Assembly: GCF_016859285.1 (NCBI RefSeq)
Contig: NC_053420.1
Span: 6,989,501 to 7,053,500, forward strand
Direction: 5' to 3'
Origin: Xiphias gladius
Taxonomy: Eukaryota; Chordata; Actinopteri; Istiophoriformes; Xiphiidae
DNA length: 64,000 nt
Shown: positions 601 through 58,500 of the stretch, in pieces
Layout: each line of letters starts with the position of its first letter
How positions within the stretch are numbered: the first letter of the stretch is position 1
Notes under the pieces: generated by a model
Seen by the model: the letters and a program-made list of their open reading frames with translations, nothing else
What the model was told of the DNA's origin: nothing
Database searches by the model: none
Made by a program: the position numbers and the translations under genes

Positions 601-1109
601 ATGGCACCTACAATCACTGCAGCAATGACCAACTCTCAGGAGCATCTGACTCTGACCCACAAGGTAAATTGGAGATTCTAGGAGATTTAATCTTCATTCC
701 TGAGAGGCTGACTTTGTTCATGCTAACACTTTACTCCAGAACAAGTTTATTCATGACTTTGTTCTTCTTTCTGCAGCTCAGAAAACCTCTGGTGGAGAAG
801 TTACGCAGAGAGCGAATCAACAGCAGCATTGAGCAGCTCAAGTCTCTCCTGGGTCCAGAGTTCCTCAAACAGCAGCCAGACTCTAAGCTGGAGAAAGCAG
901 ACATCCTGGAGATGACAGTTTGCTTCCTGACACAGCTGCAGCAGCAGAATCAACAGCAGAGAAGACTGCTGAACCACGTCAACAAGCTGCAGTCTTCCTC
1001 TGATAAGAACCTGAGAGGCTGACTTCTCTCTCTCCTGAGCTCCACAGTCCAGACCAGCATCACCAAAGACAAGAGTCCACTCAACAGCGCCCTCTGGAGG
1101 CCGTGGTAG
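601..1109 (+). pseudogene. hes5-like: Hes5-type gene copy A, truncated before WRPW
   Basis: The exons are 601-663 (21 codons, starting MAPTITAAM) and 777 onward, split by a 113-nt GT-AG intron. Exon 2 begins LRKPLVEKLRRERINSSIEQ, a Hes basic region with the family proline, followed by helix-loop-helix ending EKADILEMTVCFL. The Orange domain is absent, as in copies B-D. A 2-nt loss in a GA run shifts the frame after DKNLR, so translation stops at 1020-1022 and gives 102 aa. A 2-nt gain just downstream restores the original frame, but past the stop, so the WRPW codons at 1095-1106 are not read. The product could still dimerise and bind DNA but could not recruit Groucho/TLE through WRPW. It is either a pseudogene or a dominant-negative form. 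Confidence 0.8.
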
Positions 1110-4658: not shown

Positions 4659-5167
4659 ATGGCACCTACAATCACTGCAGCAATGACCAACTCTCAGGAG
4701 CATCTGACTCTGACCCACAAGGTAAATTGGAGATTCTAGGAGATTTAATCTTCATTCCTGAGAGGCTGACTTTGTTCATGCTAACACTTTACTCCAGAAC
4801 AAGTTTATTCATGACTTTGTTCTTCTTTCTGCAGCTCAGAAAACCTCTGGTGGAGAAGTTACGCAGAGAGCGAATCAACAGCAGCATTGAGCAGCTCAAG
4901 TCTCTCCTGGGTCCAGAGTTCCTCAAACAGCAGCCAGACTCTAAGCTGGAGAAAGCAGACATCCTGGAGATGACAGTTTGCTTCCTGACACAGCTGCAGC
5001 AGCAGAATCAACAGCAGAGAAGACTGCTGAACCACGTCAACAAGCTGCAGTCTTCCTCTGATAAGAACCTGAGAGAGGCTGACTTCTCTCTCCTGAGCTC
5101 CACAGTCCAGACCAGCATCACCAAAGACAAGAGTCCAGTCAACAGCGCCCTCTGGAGGCCGTGGTAG
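4659..5167 (+). CDS. hes5-like: Hes5-type bHLH-WRPW repressor lacking the Orange domain, copy B
   Basis: The exons are 4659-4721 and 4835-5167, encoding 131 aa. Residues 1-21 (starting MAPTITAAM) are exon 1. The basic region LRKPLVEKLRRER (22-34) and the HLH through about residue 72 are intact. Then comes a short Gln-rich joint (TQLQQQNQQQ) and a tail ending in WRPW. Hes proteins normally have an Orange domain after the HLH; here 30 codons are missing in frame relative to the intact genes at 21.1 and 25.2 kb. Family role: nuclear transcriptional repressor, target of Notch, binding N-box/E-box DNA and recruiting Groucho/TLE through WRPW. Losing Orange should alter partner choice and stability. 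It belongs to the her4/her15-type group, but I cannot assign an exact orthologue. Confidence 0.9.
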
Positions 5168-10310: not shown

Positions 10311-10819
10311 ATGACACCTACAATCACTGCAGCAATGACCAACTCTCAGGAGCATCTGACTCTGACCCACAAGGTAAATTGGAGATTCTAGGAGATTTAA
10401 TCTTCATTCCTGAGAGGCTGACTTTGTTCATGCTAACACTTTACTCCAGAACAAGTTTATTCATGACTTTGTTCTTCTTTCTGCAGCTCAGAAAACCTCT
10501 GGTGGAGAAGTTACGCAGAGAGCGAATCAACAGCAGCATTGAGCAGCTCAAGTCTCTCCTGGGTCCAGAGTTCCTCAAACAGCAGCCAGACTCTAAGCTG
10601 GAGAAAGCAGACATCCTGGAGATGACAGTTTGCTTCCTGACACAGCTGCAGCAGCAGAATCAACAGCAGAGAAGACTGCTGAACCACGTCAACAAGCTGC
10701 AGTCTTCCTCTGATAAGAACCTGAGAGAGGCTGACTTCTCTCTCCTGAGCTCCACAGTCCAGACCAGCATCACCAAAGACAAGAGTCCACTCAACAGCGC
10801 CCTCTGGAGGCCGTGGTAG
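10311..10819 (+). CDS. hes5-like: Hes5-type bHLH-WRPW repressor lacking the Orange domain, copy C
   Basis: The exons are 10311-10373 and 10487-10819, encoding 131 aa. It starts MTPTIT rather than the MAPTIT of copies A and B. The bHLH is identical to copy B, with the same Gln-rich joint in place of Orange and the tail SPLNSALWRPW. An upstream in-frame reading frame continues into exon 1 and through the intron, but the splice sites (AAG|GTAAAT and TTTCTGCAG|CTC) and the position after the TATA box favour the start at 10311. Expected to act as a Notch-responsive nuclear repressor. Confidence in the family is high; the exact orthologue is unknown. Confidence 0.9.
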
Positions 10820-14362: not shown

Positions 14363-14871
14363 ATGACACCTACAATCACTGCAGCAATGACCAACTCTCA
14401 GGAGCATCTGACTCTGACCCACAAGGTAAATTGGAGATTCTAGGAGATTTAATCTTCATTCCTGAGAGGCTGACTTTGTTCATGCTAACACTTTACTCCA
14501 GAACAAGTTTATTCATGACTTTGTTCTTCTTTCTGCAGCTCAGAAAACCTCTGGTGGAGAAGTTACGCAGAGAGCGAATCAACAGCAGCATTGAGATGCT
14601 CAAGTCTCTCCTGGGTCCAGAGTTCCTCAAACAGCAGCCAGACTCTAAGCTGGAGAAAGCAGACATCCTGGAGATGACAGTTTGCTTCCTGACACAGCTG
14701 CAGCAGCAGAATCAACAGCAGAGAAGACTGCTGAACCACGTCAACAAGCTGCAGTCTTCCTCTGATAAGAACCTGAGAGAGGCTGACTTCTCTCTTCTGA
14801 GCTCCACAGTCCAGACCAGCATCACCAAAGACAAGAGTCCAGTCAACAGCGCCCTCTGGAGGCCGTGGTAG
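14363..14871 (+). CDS. hes5-like: Hes5-type bHLH-WRPW repressor lacking the Orange domain, copy D
   Basis: The exons are 14363-14425 and 14539-14871, encoding 131 aa. It is identical in layout to copies B and C: MTPTIT start, bHLH, Gln-rich joint, WRPW tail. It has one distinctive change in helix 1, SSIEMLKSLL instead of SSIEQLKSLL. It is the last plus-strand array gene; its 3' UTR is followed by unique sequence and not by another E1-E2-E3 block, so the enhancers that serve it most likely lie upstream. Confidence 0.9.
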
Positions 14872-18064: not shown

Positions 18065-18312
18065 GAAAAGCATTTTCCCACTGACCTCCCTGATGTGTGT
18101 TACACAGATAAAGCCTCCCACCTGTTCTGCGTGACAGCCATTAAATTCCCCCTATTGTCCGATGCTCTGAGGCTCGTGATTGGCTGAGCGGCAGAGAGAG
18201 CGCAGTATGAGCAGCATAAATGCCGAGCTGAGGCGCAGATGTCAACAGAGACATTGTCTGAACCTTTGCAGGCAACTCCTGAGCTCGCCACCGCCAGAAA
18301 ACAAGCTCTGAG
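18065..18312 (+). promoter_or_regulatory. Promoter of gene G
   Basis: Contains CCTATTGTCC, then GTGATTGGCTGA (inverted CCAAT box at 18179-18183), and a TATA-like CATAAATG at 18215-18222. The order and wording match the Hes5-type promoters (TTATTGTC, then CTGATTGGCTGA, then TATAAATA). A TTCCCAC core (inverted GTGGGAA) is near 18075. Confidence 0.6.
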
Positions 18313-18768
18313 ATGGCTCTCTACGCGGACCTCGCTCTTCAGGACAGCATGAAGGAGCAGCTCTTTAGGTAAGCCAGCGCTGCCTTCTGGAGCCAACCAA
18401 ACCATCATTATTGTACACCGTCAATTTAAAAAAATAAATGCCCCTAGTTGTTTTAATTCCTGTAAAAGTCCTCGTTTCTTCAATTTCTTTTTGCTGAACA
18501 TATTGATAAAGGTCATGACCTTGTTTCTCTCAGGTGTAAACTCCACATGTTGGAGAGAAAATGCTGCACCGGAGTGGAGAAGCTGAAGGCTCTGATTGGA
18601 GAACACCTGCACAACGGGATCCCTATCGCAGACATCCTGGAGAAAACCAAGTCCTTCCTCACCTTGAGAAAAGCCCTGCTGTCACACAACGGCTACTCCA
18701 AATATTCAAGGGACTTTTTGCGCCTGTTTCCCGACGCGGAGGACGACGTGGCTCCACTGTGCTTTTAA
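18313..18768 (+). CDS. Short HLH-only relative of Hes5 (no basic region, Orange or WRPW), gene G
   Basis: The exons are 18313-18368 and 18534-18768 (donor TTTAG|GTAAGC, acceptor TTTCTCTCAG), encoding 96 aa from MALYADLALQDSMKEQ to DDVAPLCF. Residues about 24-60 (MLERKCCTGVEKLKALIGEH, then ADILEKTKSFL) align with the Hes5-type helix 1 and helix 2 (RRERINSSIEQLKSLLG, then ADILEMTVCFL). The basic residues and family proline are mostly lost, the loop is about five residues shorter, and the C-terminus has neither Orange nor WRPW. Position and promoter place it in the same family. Such a protein would be expected to dimerise without binding DNA, as Id proteins do. It may be the local counterpart of a short fish her gene such as her2; I cannot confirm this. 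A decayed gene is the alternative, but the frame is open across both exons. Confidence 0.7.
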
Positions 18769-19497
18769 TGAGGACCAGGAATGGAGTAGAGAGAATCACT
18801 GAATCTGCATCAAACCGATGTTATTGATGCCACCTGCATGCATTATTTGCATTACGTCCAGCGGATATACAAAGGCTGATATAGCTCGTCTGCCTTATTC
18901 AGGCATGTTGCAGAAGAAAATTTCCACCTCACATGATATGGTTTCAGTCTAACTTTGACCACAGCCAGAGAATCCAGAAAGCTGGATTCAGAGTTAAGGG
19001 TGAAGGACGTTATTGACTTGACAGGAAACTGTTAAAATGAGCCGTGCTGCTATTTGTGGGATTTTTTGATTTTTTTCATTGAACAAGACCACAGAAGATA
19101 AATCCAGTCTGTTAACTATGCAGGAATTAGTTGCTGATGTTTATATATTTAGGACCAAAATGTTTTAATGGATTTTATTTTATCTTAAGAATTTTTACTG
19201 TTTAACTTCAGTAAAATCTGCTTAACGTTTTAAGCCCATCAACAATGTAAACCTATTCTGCCTGTGAAAATACTGTATAGGCTAATATTGTGTGATAACA
19301 GTTTGGATATTGCCTTGTTTCAAGGTATAATGTATCGTATTCTTAAACACCAACCTTTCTTCTGAAAAGGGATTTGATATTATTTTGTGTATGCCATGTA
19401 TGCATGTTTTGTTTTATTCATCAGTTTTATTTCTGTTCATCCAAAGTGGATTCAAATTTGTTTTGTTTTTTGTTTTTGCAGATTTCTAGAAAATAAA
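18769..19497 (+). other. 3' UTR of gene G
   Basis: AT-rich, ending at AATAAA (19492-19497). No similarity to the array 3' UTRs was noticed. Confidence 0.5.
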
Positions 19498-19639: not shown

Positions 19640-20085
19640 TTGGGGGGGAGTTTTTATCATAGTTCCAGGTCTTAAGTGGAACGAGTGCTTTTGAAACACC
19701 GCGTACAGCACTATTGCCTTCTCCATGACACACCCTGAGTTAACTGCCACCACGCCACAAGTACAGGCAGGTGACAAGCTACACACAAACCCGAACAGAG
19801 CAGGGCAGGAACAAACTCCATGAATGGTTCGCTGAGAACGAAAATGATGTGACTCATATTCTGTGGCCTTTTCATTCACCACATCGTCACCCAGTTGAAC
19901 ATCTGACTGACAGCTCTCCACTAGCACTCATCAAAACCCCATACGAGGGACTATCTTTCAGAAGAACGGCGTTCATCCGACCGGGACCTAGACAAAGAAA
20001 GTCTATTCCGACGCTGGAGGCTTGTGAAGACCCAACGCCTTACTCAGACACTTCCAGTCCGTTTTTCTGTTATGTAACACCACAA
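19640..20085 (+). mobile_element. Tc1-like DNA transposon, decayed 3' part
   Basis: Includes GGAACGAGTG, a stretch translating to HILWPFHSPHRHPVEHL (compare the Tc1 family LWPSQSPDLNPIEHL around the DDE catalytic region), and CCCAACGCCTTACTCAGACACTT, typical of the 3' end of fish Tc1-type elements. Heavily mutated, with no complete transposase. It lies between gene G and gene E'. Confidence 0.7.
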
Positions 20086-20467
20086 TTTGCATTGATTATA
20101 GATATTATTGAGGGGATCTCAGCCACAAGATCACAGATAAAGGGGTTGAGCCGGCAGCCCTCCCGACTGTCTGGCTTAGGGGCCATCATATGTTTGTGAC
20201 ATCTGTTCAAGATGTGGAATTATTGTGTAACAATCAACAAAACCCACTAATCACCCTCTGTCCAAGTTAGGATTGCAACTGTGGAATATTTTTGCCCGAG
20301 TTTACCCAAAGGTGGTGTTACTGAGATGCTTGGCTCAGAACTCCGCATCTGTCAGCGATACATGTTATAAAATATATTTTGAAACATACAGTGGATTAGC
20401 ATCAGTGCAAAGAAAATGGTTAAAATGAGACAAGCAAACGTTTTTCTTTGTTTTCTTTTCTGATTGT
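20086..20467. other. Unassigned intergenic sequence
   Basis: No gene, RNA or clear repeat recognised. Confidence 0.5.
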
Positions 20468-21075: not shown

Positions 21076-21674
21076 CTACCACGGCCTCCAGAGGGCGCTG
21101 TTGACTGGACTCTTGTCTTTGGTGATGCTGGTCTGGACTGTGGAGCTCAGGAGAGAGAAGTCAGCCTCTCTCAGGTTCTTATCAGAGGAAGACTGCAGCT
21201 TGCTGATGTGGTTCAGCAGTCTTCTCTGGGACTGAGTCTTCACCTCCTCCTTGGACAAGAAGTGCGCCACCTCTTGGACACATCTGGAATAGCCCTGATC
21301 GAAAGCTGCCGATTCCACAGCTTGATGATGTTGCTGTAGTCGCCTCAGGAAGCAAACTGTCATCTCCAGGATGTCTGCTTTCTCCAGCTTAGAGTCCGGC
21401 TGCCGTTTGAGGAACTCTGGACCCAGGAGAGACTTGAGCTGCTCAATGCTGCTGTTGATTCGCTCTCTGCGTAACTTCTCCACCAGTGGTTTTCTGAGCT
21501 GCAGAAAGAAGAACAAAGTCATGAATAAACTTGTTCTGGAGTAAAGAGTTAGCATGAACAAAGTCAGCCTCTCAGGAATGAAGATTAAATCTCCTAGAAT
21601 CTCCAATTTACCTTGTGGGTCAGAGTCAGATGCTCCTGAGAGTTGGTCCTTGCTGCAGTGATTGTAGGTGTCAT
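21076..21674 (-). CDS. hes5-like: Intact Hes5-type bHLH-Orange-WRPW repressor, gene E'
   Basis: Minus-strand gene with exons 21674-21612 and 21498-21076, encoding 161 aa. It starts MTPTITAARTNSQEHL. The bHLH (LRKPLVEKLRRERINSSIEQ onward) matches the array copies. The Orange domain is present (RRLQQHHQAVESAAFDQGYS, then CVQEVAHFLSKEEVKTQSQ), and the protein ends SALWRPW. The 113-nt intron is at the same place as in all family members here. Role: nuclear repressor, Notch target, recruiting Groucho/TLE by WRPW. It stands head to head with gene F and shares the 3.5-kb interval between them. Coding and intron sequence are almost identical to F while the 3' flank is unrelated, which suggests gene conversion or a recent inverted copy. 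Confidence 0.93.
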
Positions 21675-25233: not shown

Positions 25234-25832
25234 ATGACACCTACAATCACTGCAGCAATGACCAACTCTCAGGAGCATCTGACTCTGACCCACAAGGTAA
25301 ATTGGAGATTCTAGGAGATTTAATCTTCATTCCTGAGAGGCTGACTTTGTTCATGCTAACTCTTTACAACAGAATAAGTTTATTCATGACTTTGTTCTTC
25401 TTTCTGCAGCTCAGAAAACCTCTGGTGGAGAAGTTACGCAGAGAGCGAATCAACAGCAGCATTGAGCAGCTCAAGTCTCTCCTGGGTCCAGAGTTCCTCA
25501 AACAGCAGCCAGACTCTAAGCTGGAGAAAGCAGACATCCTGGAGATGACAGTTTGCTTCCTGAGGCGACTGCAGCAACATCATCAAGCTGTGGAATCGGC
25601 AGCTTTCGATCAGGGCTATTCCAGATGTGTCCAAGAGGTGGCGCACTTCTTGTCCAAGGAGGAGGTGAAGACTCAGTCCCAGAGAAGACTGCTGAACCAC
25701 ATCAGCAAGCTGCAGTCTTCGTCTGATAAGAACCTGAGAGAGGCTGACTTCTCTCTCCTGAGCTCCACAGTCCAGACCAGCATCACCAAAGACAAGAGTC
25801 CAGTCAACAGCGCCCCCTGGAGGCCGTGGTAG
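25234..25832 (+). CDS. hes5-like: Intact Hes5-type bHLH-Orange-WRPW repressor, gene F
   Basis: The exons are 25234-25296 and 25410-25832, encoding 161 aa. It starts MTPTITAAMTNSQEHL, then the bHLH (residues 22-72), the Orange domain (about 73-110, containing FDQGYSRCVQEVAHFLSK), a linker QRRLLNHISKLQSSSDK, and the C-terminal WRPW. Compared with human HES5, the spacing bHLH, Orange (YSEGYSWCLQEA in human), WRPW is retained. It is probably the best representative of the ancestral locus: a complete protein, diverged E1-E2-E3 block, and closest to pank4, as in human where HES5 neighbours PANK4. Expected Notch-induced repressor of neuronal differentiation genes. Confidence 0.94.
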
Positions 25833-28020: not shown

Positions 28021-39706
<11,686 letters not shown>

Positions 39707-54600: not shown

Positions 54601-55530
54601 TGCAAATATCAGTTGATTTTATTTGACTGGTTACGGATGAAACTAAACTGAACTGGTTTGAATCCAGCGGAATATATATCAAACCTACGTTTTTTAGTTT
54701 TTAAGCTTTCTCCTTTACACAGGACGGAAGCTAGATTGTATTCACAAGCTAGCTGCCAAAAGGCACAATGGATTCCGGTGGGGGTCTACAGTCACAGCAG
54801 GGCGAGAAAGTGTGAAAACAAGAACATCTGAAACCGCTCTTGCAGTAAAGTCTGCTTTTCCACTGTCGATCCAGAAGTGGAGAATGTGGCATGATAAGCT
54901 TTGAGTATTTGATGCGGATGTTTTTGTTTTTGAAGGCGTCTGAAGGTTATGAACATAAATCATGAAGAAAATAGACTCCATTTACATTATTCAGCCTAAT
55001 GTACAAAATTAGTGTCTTAAACGTGTCGCCAATGATGTGTTGTCTAATTCTTATGCACAAACCTGTATTTCAAGAGGTCGTTCGATGTGGGGCTGCAACA
55101 AGTGATTATTTTCATTAGGGATTAATCTGCCAGTTCTCGATGAATCGAGTTATCGCTTGTTCCATACAAAGTCAGAAAATATTGAAAATTGCCAGTCACT
55201 GTCTCCTGAAGCCCAAAGTGATGTCCTCTCATTACTTGTTTTGTCTTTCCACCAGTCCAGAACCCTAAAATATGTGGTTTACCATCACTTAAGACAGAGA
55301 AAAGCAACAAATTCTCGTAATTGGTACTTTTTCTTGAAGATAACTTAAATGATTGATCCATTATCAAAATAGTTCTGGATTAATATATTTTCAGTTGACT
55401 AAGCCAGATTGTTTTGGACAAACATCCACCAGTGCAGCTTAAATCCACCTTAAGTTTCGGTGTCAGTTATTTGGATCTACTCACACAGCAGAATCTGTGA
55501 CGCGCTGACATGTATTTTCTGTCTTCCTAG
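46483..55530 (+). other. Probable draxin intron 1
   Basis: About 9 kb with no other gene recognised. Microsatellites: (GT)n at 47278-47317 and 48650-48680, CT-rich 48290-48480, (AC)n 52789-52806, (GT)n 50816-50837 and 52893-52910. A TTAATTAATTGCGAG homeodomain-type cluster lies near 47468. An interspersed repeat is at 55085-55400. Confidence 0.5.
55085..55400 (+). mobile_element. Teleost interspersed repeat with 'ATTATTTTCATTA...GATTAATC' start
   Basis: GTGATTATTTTCATTAGGGATTAATCTGCCA, GTCAGAAAATATTGAAAATTGCC, CTTAAGACAGAGAAAAGCA and ATTATCAAAATAGTTC follow the order of a very common non-coding fish repeat. The copy is decayed and lies just before draxin exon 2. Confidence 0.65.
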
Positions 55531-55555
55531 CAGGTGGCGTTGTGCTGCACAGACA

Positions 55556-58500
55556 ATGGCTCTCTCCTGGAGTCTGCTCCTGGCCTTCCTGCTCGGCACC
55601 CTGGCGCTGTCGCACAGTGCGGAGCCCGGGGCTCCTCACGGCAAGAGGAGACAGGCACAGACCTCAGCAGGTGGCAGCAACACCCTACAGCACCCTCTGC
55701 AAGGTCTACAGGGCCACAGTTACAGCAGGGACCGTGGAGGGCACGGGGCCCAGGGGGCCCGCGTTGCCAAAGGTGGAGCCGGGCTGCTCGCGCACAGGTC
55801 CCTGCACCCCCTGGCCAGGCCTGAGGATGATGGGACAGGCCTGGAGGGCTTGAGCCCCGTGAGACTGGAGATGGGCCCGGGCAGGGACAGAGACAGAGTT
55901 CGAATGAGTGTGAGGAGTCCATCCGGGTCCCGGGAAAACCAGCTCCTGGGGTCACGCAAGGGGAGAGGGCACGGACACGGGAATGGGCACGGACACGGAC
56001 ACCACTCGGAGCACAGGAGACAAGGGAGTCGGCGCGACAAGGGACGACACGGTAAAGGTGAGCTCTTGCTGGATCTGGACGTACAACATAACCTATTTCT
56101 GACAAATTAGCCTCGACTGCAGTGTTTTCCAGTGTTGGACAAACAACGGGGAGATGTAGTTCATTTTCACCCACTTGTTGTTTATTGTGAGACAACAGGG
56201 ATGGGTTCAGATCAATTTCAGTCAAAGGTCAGTTCAAAAGACATATTCAGTGTCTACCTGTGCAGAAATTTTGAAATCTGACATTAGACACAGTTGAAGT
56301 GAACAGAATTTTGGTTATTGTATTGAAGAAGACACCTAAAAATAATAAAAATCAATAACAAATTATGGAATTTGGGCGCTTTTGTGAAAGGTGAGATAAC
56401 ATGTTGAAGGAGAGTGAGTCTGGCTCAGGAGGTAGAGCGGGTCATCCACTAACCGTAATGGTCGGTGGTTTGCTCCTCCAGTCCGCATGTCGAAGTGTCC
56501 TTGGGCAAGATACTGAACCCCAAATTGCCCCCGACGTATCATCGGCGTGTTAGTGTGCGTGTCTATAGAAAGCTGCGTGAATGTGTGCGCGAATGGGTGA
56601 ATGTGGCATGTGGCGTTAAAGCGCTTTGAGAGGCTGTTCAGAATAGAAAAGCGCTGTGTAAGTGCAGCCCATTTACCGTCACATATTAAGAAGACAGTTC
56701 TGCTGAGTTAATGTACTCACATTAACATCAGTCTAGTATGGCAGGATAAAGCTTTAATTCACCAAATTATATATATATAAAAAAATTGATTTTGTGATCA
56801 GCGACTGACAAAACAATCTCGCCACAATGTCCATTTAGCTTTTGTCAGCGGGTGGAGTTTTCCCAGTTGTCATGGAACTGTACATGTGGAAACTTACATT
56901 ACCGTTTTAATTCAAAAGTTATAAATGGAAACTCGAACATCTACAAAAACTGAAATCAGGGCAGACCCCATCTGCTGAGGATGATCATGTAGTACAATCA
57001 AAAGCTCCAGATTAGCTACTAAACTGACCTCATGGTGAGATTCTTTGTAGGGAAAAAAATCTCACACTTTCCGTGATTTGATTGGCTGGACATAACCTTC
57101 ACACTCCATCAACTCTTTATAAAGGTGTGTTAATATTTGAACTTTTCTTTACATTTTTAACCAAAAATGGAAGTAAACTGAATCCACGTTTGTTGGAAGC
57201 TGGAAAACCTCGCATCAGTATTGGAACAATGTTTTCTCTCGCTGTCTATCATCTCTGTCCAGGGTTTCCTCCGGAGCTTGGGCTGAAGTCTGCCTTGAAG
57301 GACAGAGATCTGTTCGAGGACCCTCCCTCTTCCTCCTCCTCCTCCTCCTCCTCTGCTGCCTCCCCCTCCCTCAGTGTGACCCCGCCCAGTGAACCCCCCT
57401 CCCCCATCGCCGCCGTCTTTGGCTCTGGCTCCTCCATGGTTACCACGGTGATGAACGAGCATCCCCCAACGCTGCCCCCGGCCTCCACCAAACCCCAGGT
57501 AACCCCAGCGAAGCCCAAGTGCTTATTAAAGGCTGCGTCTGTTGTGCCTCAGTGTGGTTCTAGTGTGCGGGGGGGGGGGGCATAATGGGCCCCATTACTG
57601 CCGTTATGCTGCCGCAAACCTCATAGCTCATCTCGGAAATGACACTCTCTGCAGCGTCGACCTGAAAGTGCTGCCGGTGAAAAATACCCTCCAGCAGGCC
57701 AAACTCACCGGCTCCTGGCCACAGTGTGTTTGATAGATATGACCGTGTTCTTTGTAATAAAACTACGCCTCTGGAATCAAAATCACACATTTCCAGTCCG
57801 GCAGCACATTTTCTATTACTACCTTCCTTTTCCCTTATTAGAAACCACGTCAGGACGAAATGTATGTGACCACGGAGAGTCTTTTTTTTTTGTGTCCAAC
57901 TGTGGGCACATGTAATGAAAAATCTGCAGGAGTGCGTGGGACACCGCTCACCATCTGTCACATTCACCCAGCATAATGCTTAAACCGTATGTACAAACAT
58001 CATTTATGAGGAGAAAAAAAAAAAAAAGTCACCAGTGTTTTCCTGTCCCTCTTTCAGTCTCGGAACCATTGCAAAATTAGACTCTTTAAGACAAAACGGT
58101 ACCTGATGTCAACAGGTATTGGCATCCGTGCCCACGTCGTGAAATCTTTTACATTTGTCACGGCCGCTGTTACAAACATGTAGGGCGTTGTTCAGAAAAA
58201 AAAAAAAAGCTGCCATAGATCACTGACACTGGCTAATTGAAGGTCGCTGTTGAGGAGCTCTGTTCAAGAAAAAAAAAAAAAAACAGCACTAAAGACTGAA
58301 AAATAGAAAAGTAAAGGAAAGGATCTCATGGGCTGCGTCGAAACGGAGATGTTTAACCTTTTGAAATGACATATACAAATACATACGAGCCTCGATACTG
58401 CCGAGCATTGGCCACTGCAGCCCCATAAAGTGGTGGGTGTACACTTAACAGTGAGCATACAGTGCTCTCACTGCTCTCACTGTTAGAAACCCATCATTTC

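Follow-up and report, generated by a model that had tools for sequence, protein, structure and literature searches.

A Hes5-type cluster beside pank4

The window, that is, the whole 64-kb stretch of Xiphias gladius DNA that was analyzed, holds six near-alike Hes5-type copies (A to D and F are plus-strand genes, and E is encoded on the minus strand), followed by pank4, which is recognized by Fumble exons (29011, 30022, and 32409) and by exons resembling ARMT1 (36164 and 39416), the match at 39416 being below the Pfam cut-off. A Draxin exon lies downstream of pank4 at 55454-56107 on the plus strand (Pfam Draxin, E = 3.3e-20). By its position, the locus fits the pank4-linked hes5 genes that have been reported for gar, chicken, gecko, coelacanth, and frogs (PMC8320183). 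Three of the six copies, hereafter siblings, are laid out as follows.

14363 to 14871, plus strand: sibling D; ATG at 14363, exon 2 from 14539 to the stop; Orange core missing, WRPW kept
21076 to 21674, minus strand: sibling E; ATG at 21674, exon 2 from 21498; complete Hes5 architecture, Orange and WRPW included
25234 to 25832, plus strand: sibling F; ATG at 25234, exon 2 from 25410; complete Hes5 architecture; matches to Pfam HLH and Hairy_orange

Siblings A to D (777-1022, 4835-5167, 10487-10819, and 14539-14871, all plus strand) are without a 90-nt in-frame stretch holding the Orange core, which is present in E and F, while WRPW is present in B to D. Two copies were scanned for Pfam Hairy_orange, which is found in F and not in B. 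Annelid Hes genes that have lost the Orange domain have been described (PMC4172395), and the Orange-less Hes5-type repressors of this cluster are perhaps as interesting as the gene considered below. In sibling A, a 2-nt deletion at about 1010-1025 (plus strand) and a later compensating 2-nt insertion bring a stop ahead of WRPW, so that the protein ends NLRG; either this copy is a pseudogene or the assembly is wrong here.

Outside the Orange stretch, the six siblings (601-25832) are highly alike. Thus, from their sequences, recent tandem duplication or gene conversion among them is likely, and a further gene in their midst, here called G, is likely to have escaped it.

A short, probably coding gene amid the siblings

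Gene G comprises two exons, 18313-18368 and 18534-18768, which splice in frame to encode 96 aa and a stop.

18313 to 18368, plus strand: exon 1, coding part; 18 codons and 2 nt
18369 to 18533, plus strand: intron; 165 nt, phase 2, GTAAGC...TTTCTCTCAG
18534 to 18768, plus strand: exon 2, coding part and stop; basic stretch eroded, HLH present, perhaps a first Orange helix, WRPW absent
19492 to 19497, plus strand: candidate poly(A) signal AATAAA, 724 nt past the stop

The ATG at 18313 has G at both -3 and +4, and the intron is of the GT..AG type with good splice signals (donor TAG/GTAAGC; acceptor TTTCTCTCAG/G). The original prediction, made from the sequence without database searches, was of an in-frame join across a normal intron to give 96 aa; we find that the join, the length, and the splice signals hold, but that the exact intron position does not. 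G has an intron of phase 2 and 165 nt, and all six siblings have one of phase 0 and 113 nt. Just 3' of G, at 19744-20196 on the plus strand, lies an open frame that looks, by eye, like a degenerate Tc1-like transposase; it has no Pfam match at E 0.01.

The base composition of G is that of a coding sequence. GC content at the three codon positions is 0.526, 0.330, and 0.711 in G, and 0.519, 0.389, and 0.673 in sibling F. The GC3 of G (0.71) compares with a GC content of 0.34-0.38 in flanking noncoding DNA (0.376 in the intron and 0.343 in the 3' region), and G is therefore probably coding, or was so until recently. Among 1899 background frames of similar GC, 4 match this GC3 contrast, each of them interrupted by a stop, and 18 match the base-by-position chi-square; the background frames are overlapping windows on both strands with the window's other exons included.

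The 291 coding nt of G are free of visible stops, frameshifts, and splice lesions. In neutral simulations with indels, an open frame was retained in 18% of runs at 0.05, 3.5% at 0.1, and 0.3% at 0.2 substitutions/site; these simulations spared the start and stop codons, took G itself as the starting sequence, and assumed an indel rate. The divergence of G from F is about 0.56 per site (JC), measured over 27 codons chosen as best aligned, of which 17, 19, and 13 are identical at codon positions 1, 2, and 3, respectively. We infer that the bulk of this divergence arose while G was coding.

These data bear on one rival account, namely that G is a decaying duplicate in which constraint has relaxed and domains have been lost stepwise, leaving a recent pseudogene or an expressed gene with no function. 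The intact frame and splice signals argue against decay, as do the strong coding composition and the small share of simulated genes (3.5%) that keep their frame under neutral drift of 0.1/site. On the other side, the frameshift in sibling A means that lesions do occur in this array, and the dN/dS ratio between G and F is only mildly below 1 (dN 0.49, dS 0.82, ratio 0.60), a value to which we give little weight because its 27 codons were chosen for similarity. A very recent loss of function is possible, and the decay account as a whole is a doubtful but serious competitor.

HLH homology and its erosion

Local alignments (BLOSUM62) connect G with its neighbors: the score against exon 2 of sibling B is attained by 1 of 5000 shuffles, that against F by 12 of 5000, and that against the Hes1 HLH by 111 of 5000. 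When G is aligned with hhalign to a profile built from four window copies (F, E, B, and D) and Hes1, the score is 27.2, compared with 9.8 for reversed G. None of 400 shuffles attains the former, which bears out the predicted alignment of the G helices with the Hes5 HLH, though Pfam HLH has no match to G at E values up to 10. Taken by part, the signal comes from G residues 19-66 (0 of 200 shuffles); the C-terminal part (62-96) is equalled by 18 of 200 shuffles, and exon 1 has no detectable homology at the protein level (hhalign; 120 of 200). The homology-bearing part of G is therefore the HLH core, VEKLKALIG and ADILEKTKSFL. We conclude from these alignments that the HLH of G is homologous to that of the neighboring Hes5-type copies.

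Pfam and PDB searches with G placed it in no family. A tblastn search matched all six siblings (E 0.004 to 0.019) with the start of G aligned to their translated intron, and that part of the match is spurious. A match to KorB (E 0.26, below the Pfam cut-off) was dismissed as chance. A PDB chain search with the G sequence found no match, nor did Rfam within the window at gathering thresholds, and a scan of viral contigs gave 46 pattern matches and no relative, as expected of a vertebrate gene.

The alignment also shows that the HLH of G has changed. Its loop is 5 aa shorter than the loops of the siblings. In helix 2, the M and V of the MTV of sibling F are both Lys, and the V position is one that is usually buried. 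The residue before ADIL is Ile in place of a Lys that is conserved even in Id proteins. Ahead of helix 1, G is shorter by 3 aa; MAFFT places this gap in the basic region, and if the gap falls instead at ERIN, helix 1 of G would be one turn shorter. Because helix 2 has Lys for Met and Val, and because the start of helix 1 is perhaps shortened, pairing of G with its siblings may be weak.

Some of these changes are at positions typical of HLH pairing, and neither exon 1 nor the C-terminal part has significant homology. Both observations would suit a working short protein with another job, in which the helices form a hairpin or bind some other partner and do not pair with Hes proteins. Against this, the homology is carried by the HLH core itself, suggesting that pairing is what was kept, and we consider such another job improbable.

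Loss of WRPW and the basic residues, with a possible Orange remnant

The basic region of G departs from that of F however the two are aligned. In the ungapped register, E7 becomes L, K8 becomes H, R10 becomes L, R11 becomes E, I14 becomes C, and N15 becomes C, with R13 to K the sole charge kept. When a gap is introduced by eye, the Glu is retained and the arginine pair is replaced by Cys-Cys. A Hes basic region with the arginine pair and the following R-I-N is thus absent from G, and in either register the DNA-contact set is not intact. The stretch preceding helix 1 (RCKLHMLERKCC) has a nucleotide similarity to the F basic region that does not exceed chance, being attained by 842 of 2000 codon shuffles. 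The original prediction had the DNA-contacting basic residues gone; the specific residues are indeed lost, but the net charge ahead of helix 1 is still positive (+3, versus +4 in F).

The predicted loss of WRPW is confirmed: G ends APLCF, and a pattern search beyond the stop as far as 19700, covering three frames, found no remnant. The loss of Orange, likewise predicted, is not shown. The hhalign alignment continues through GYSKYSRD of G opposite GYSRCVQE of the F Orange, and a first Orange helix in G is therefore possible from this alignment, although the C-terminal part alone is not significant. Beyond its HLH, the local score of G against F is attained by 1968 of 5000 shuffles, and that against the Hes1 Orange by 611 of 5000; the best local alignments in these two tests lay elsewhere than GYS. 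The G alignments give no sign of the 90-nt Orange deletion of siblings A to D, Orange itself being undetectable in G.

These losses are open to two readings. A basic region that is not intact, a missing WRPW, an undetectable Orange, and an altered HLH are what stepwise decay would leave behind. The same features taken together, an HLH retained and a DNA-binding part lost, support G as a non-DNA-binding HLH paralogue, which is how the sequence had originally been read.

A shared promoter with weak links to Notch

Upstream of G, two features were found.

18154 to 18187, plus strand: promoter pair ATTGTC...GTGATTGGCTGA, common to G and all six siblings; 7 matches in the window, 0 of 100 shuffles
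18075 to 18081, minus strand: TTCCCAC (RTGGGAA), at -238; the sole such match within 700 nt on the 5' side of the G ATG

Each of the seven genes has a single copy of the pattern ATTGTC, 10-30 bases, GATTGGCTGA. ATTGTC is positioned at -159 in G and -161 in the siblings, and ATTGG at -134 in G and -140 in all six siblings. G was said to keep the promoter blocks of the family; the ATTGTC pair is present, but the second block, GTGATTGGCTGA, is one base different from the quoted CTGATTGGCTGA. By reading, TGATTGGCTGA is an inverted CCAAT box. Since the CCAAT box is a general promoter element, this block is evidence of ancestry and promoter function, and not of Notch control. G thus lies in a hes5 cluster beside pank4 and carries the promoter pair of that cluster.

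Notch control had also been proposed for G. It is weakly supported, because the CSL-like TGTGAGAA that all six siblings have at -128 is absent from G. A farther upstream match, at -271 to -286 in five of the six siblings (A, B, D, E, and F), is absent as well, and YRTGDGAA is not matched anywhere in the 700 nt that precede the G ATG. G has the one TTCCCAC at -238, a motif (RTGGGAA) whose frequency in the window is about 0.27 per 700 nt. The missing -128 site is also a point in favor of decay.

A further rival makes G the local equivalent of zebrafish her2, acting, like Her2, as a DNA-binding repressor. The zebrafish gene, reported to be perhaps only partly Notch dependent (PMC10112928), encodes 108 aa (G, 96 aa) in 2 coding exons and is clustered with her15.1 and her15.2 (PMC8320183). 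It is therefore likewise a short, two-exon gene within a Hes5-type cluster. Two exons are, however, common among ray-finned hes5 genes (PMC8320183 Table 2), so this layout says little about kinship with her2. Moreover, Her2 is reported to be 51% identical to frog hes5.1 (PMC8320183), whereas G reaches only 31-33% with the five siblings compared. Her2 binds N-boxes, as found by ChIP of overexpressed tagged protein, and a Her2 construct without WRPW failed to lower a reporter (PMC4696291). G has neither WRPW nor an intact basic region and so cannot be assumed to be Her2-like. This account is the least likely of those that we consider.

A proposed dimer-poisoning paralogue

G is a real, diverged Hes5 paralogue, and it is probably coding. 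Our preferred explanation, to which we give a probability of about one in three, is that G belongs to the Hes5-type (her) cluster as an old and diverged member that encodes, or until recently encoded, a 96-aa non-DNA-binding partner, one that would poison Hes5-type dimers. It is the best single mechanism for G, and decay is nearly as likely.

Under this explanation, the G protein would still pair through its HLH with Hes5-type siblings that are under the same kind of promoter. A mixed dimer would be unable to hold N/E-box DNA, half of its basic region being wrong, and would be without one of the WRPW tails for Groucho/TLE. The outcome would be weaker repression by the cluster proteins, as reported for HES6. 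Autorepression would then be relieved, and Hes5-type transcription of the cluster would go up. The original prediction of a brake on the array's own products is therefore apt for the proteins, whose repression would be lowered, but not for the genes, since disabling an autorepressor would raise their transcription.

Experiments in chick lend this mechanism plausibility by analogy. Unmodified HES6-2 lowers cHes5-1, whereas a variant in which the arginine pair was altered and WRPW deleted had the opposite effect, raising cHes5-1 in 78% of the embryos electroporated (n = 37; PMC2996300). The same double variant of HES6-1 raised cHes5-1 in 75% (n = 12), although HES6-1 does so even when unmodified (PMC2996300). 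Because G is without both features that were disabled in the HES6-2 variant, sequestration of Hes5-type partners by G is plausible; because it has a short loop in addition, dimer poisoning is its likeliest function, if it has one. The HES6 double variants described are otherwise unmodified (PMC2996300), whereas in G the HLH itself is altered.

In neural progenitors, the rise and decay of Notch output depend on how Hes5-type proteins repress their own genes. If our explanation is true, a natural sibling without DNA-binding and WRPW parts represents a genomic version of the HES6 double-mutant constructs, and G illustrates the evolution of an antagonist from within a tandem array. If G is a copy in decay, it documents the way in which a Hes gene comes to lose its parts. 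A more far-reaching proposal is that this is a Hes5 cluster with a built-in inhibitor, in which G, under a promoter related to those of its siblings, kept dimerization, shed DNA and co-repressor binding, and tunes autorepression across the array, having come to a Hes6-like state by another route. We regard this proposal as rather unlikely, though less so than the other job considered above. In our searches of the literature on the locus, on Hes5 paralogues without a basic region, on Hes6, and on HLH inhibitors, we found no report of such a fish gene.

Comparison with known systems

With the Hes5-type cluster genes (Hes5, her4, her12, and her15), G shares the pank4 locus, the promoter blocks, the ancestry of its HLH, and a single intron before the HLH. 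It differs from them in having no intact basic region, no WRPW, and no detectable Orange, and in the phase of its intron, which is 2 and not 0. Elephant shark her3, which is near pank4 and is reported to be without WRPW (PMC8320183), resembles G by description only.

Id proteins and Extramacrochaetae are, like G, HLH proteins without a functional basic region, a likeness that for G is drawn by sequence only. Id proteins mainly titrate E proteins. G differs from them in its ancestry with Hes5-type genes (locus and promoter), in the charged stretch before helix 1, and in its altered helix 2.

The likeness to Hes6 is of another kind. The loop of G is 5 aa shorter than those of its siblings, just as zebrafish Hes6 and Her13 have loops that fall five residues short of those in other Hes proteins (PMC3125270). 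Mouse HES6 is reported to be unable to bind DNA owing to its short loop and to act through heterodimers (PMC2996300); HES6-1 proteins, which also have short loops, are reported to inhibit Hes1 or Hes5 via mixed dimers and not by DNA binding (PMC2996300; PMC3125270). G is similarly predicted to be without N-box binding and is proposed to act via mixed dimers. There are also differences: HES6 has the basic arginine pair and WRPW (PMC2996300) as well as an Orange domain (PMC3125270), whereas G is without the first two and has no significant Orange, and its locus and promoter are of Hes5 type. In its proposed mechanism, G is closer to Hes6, whose loop is equally short, than to Id.
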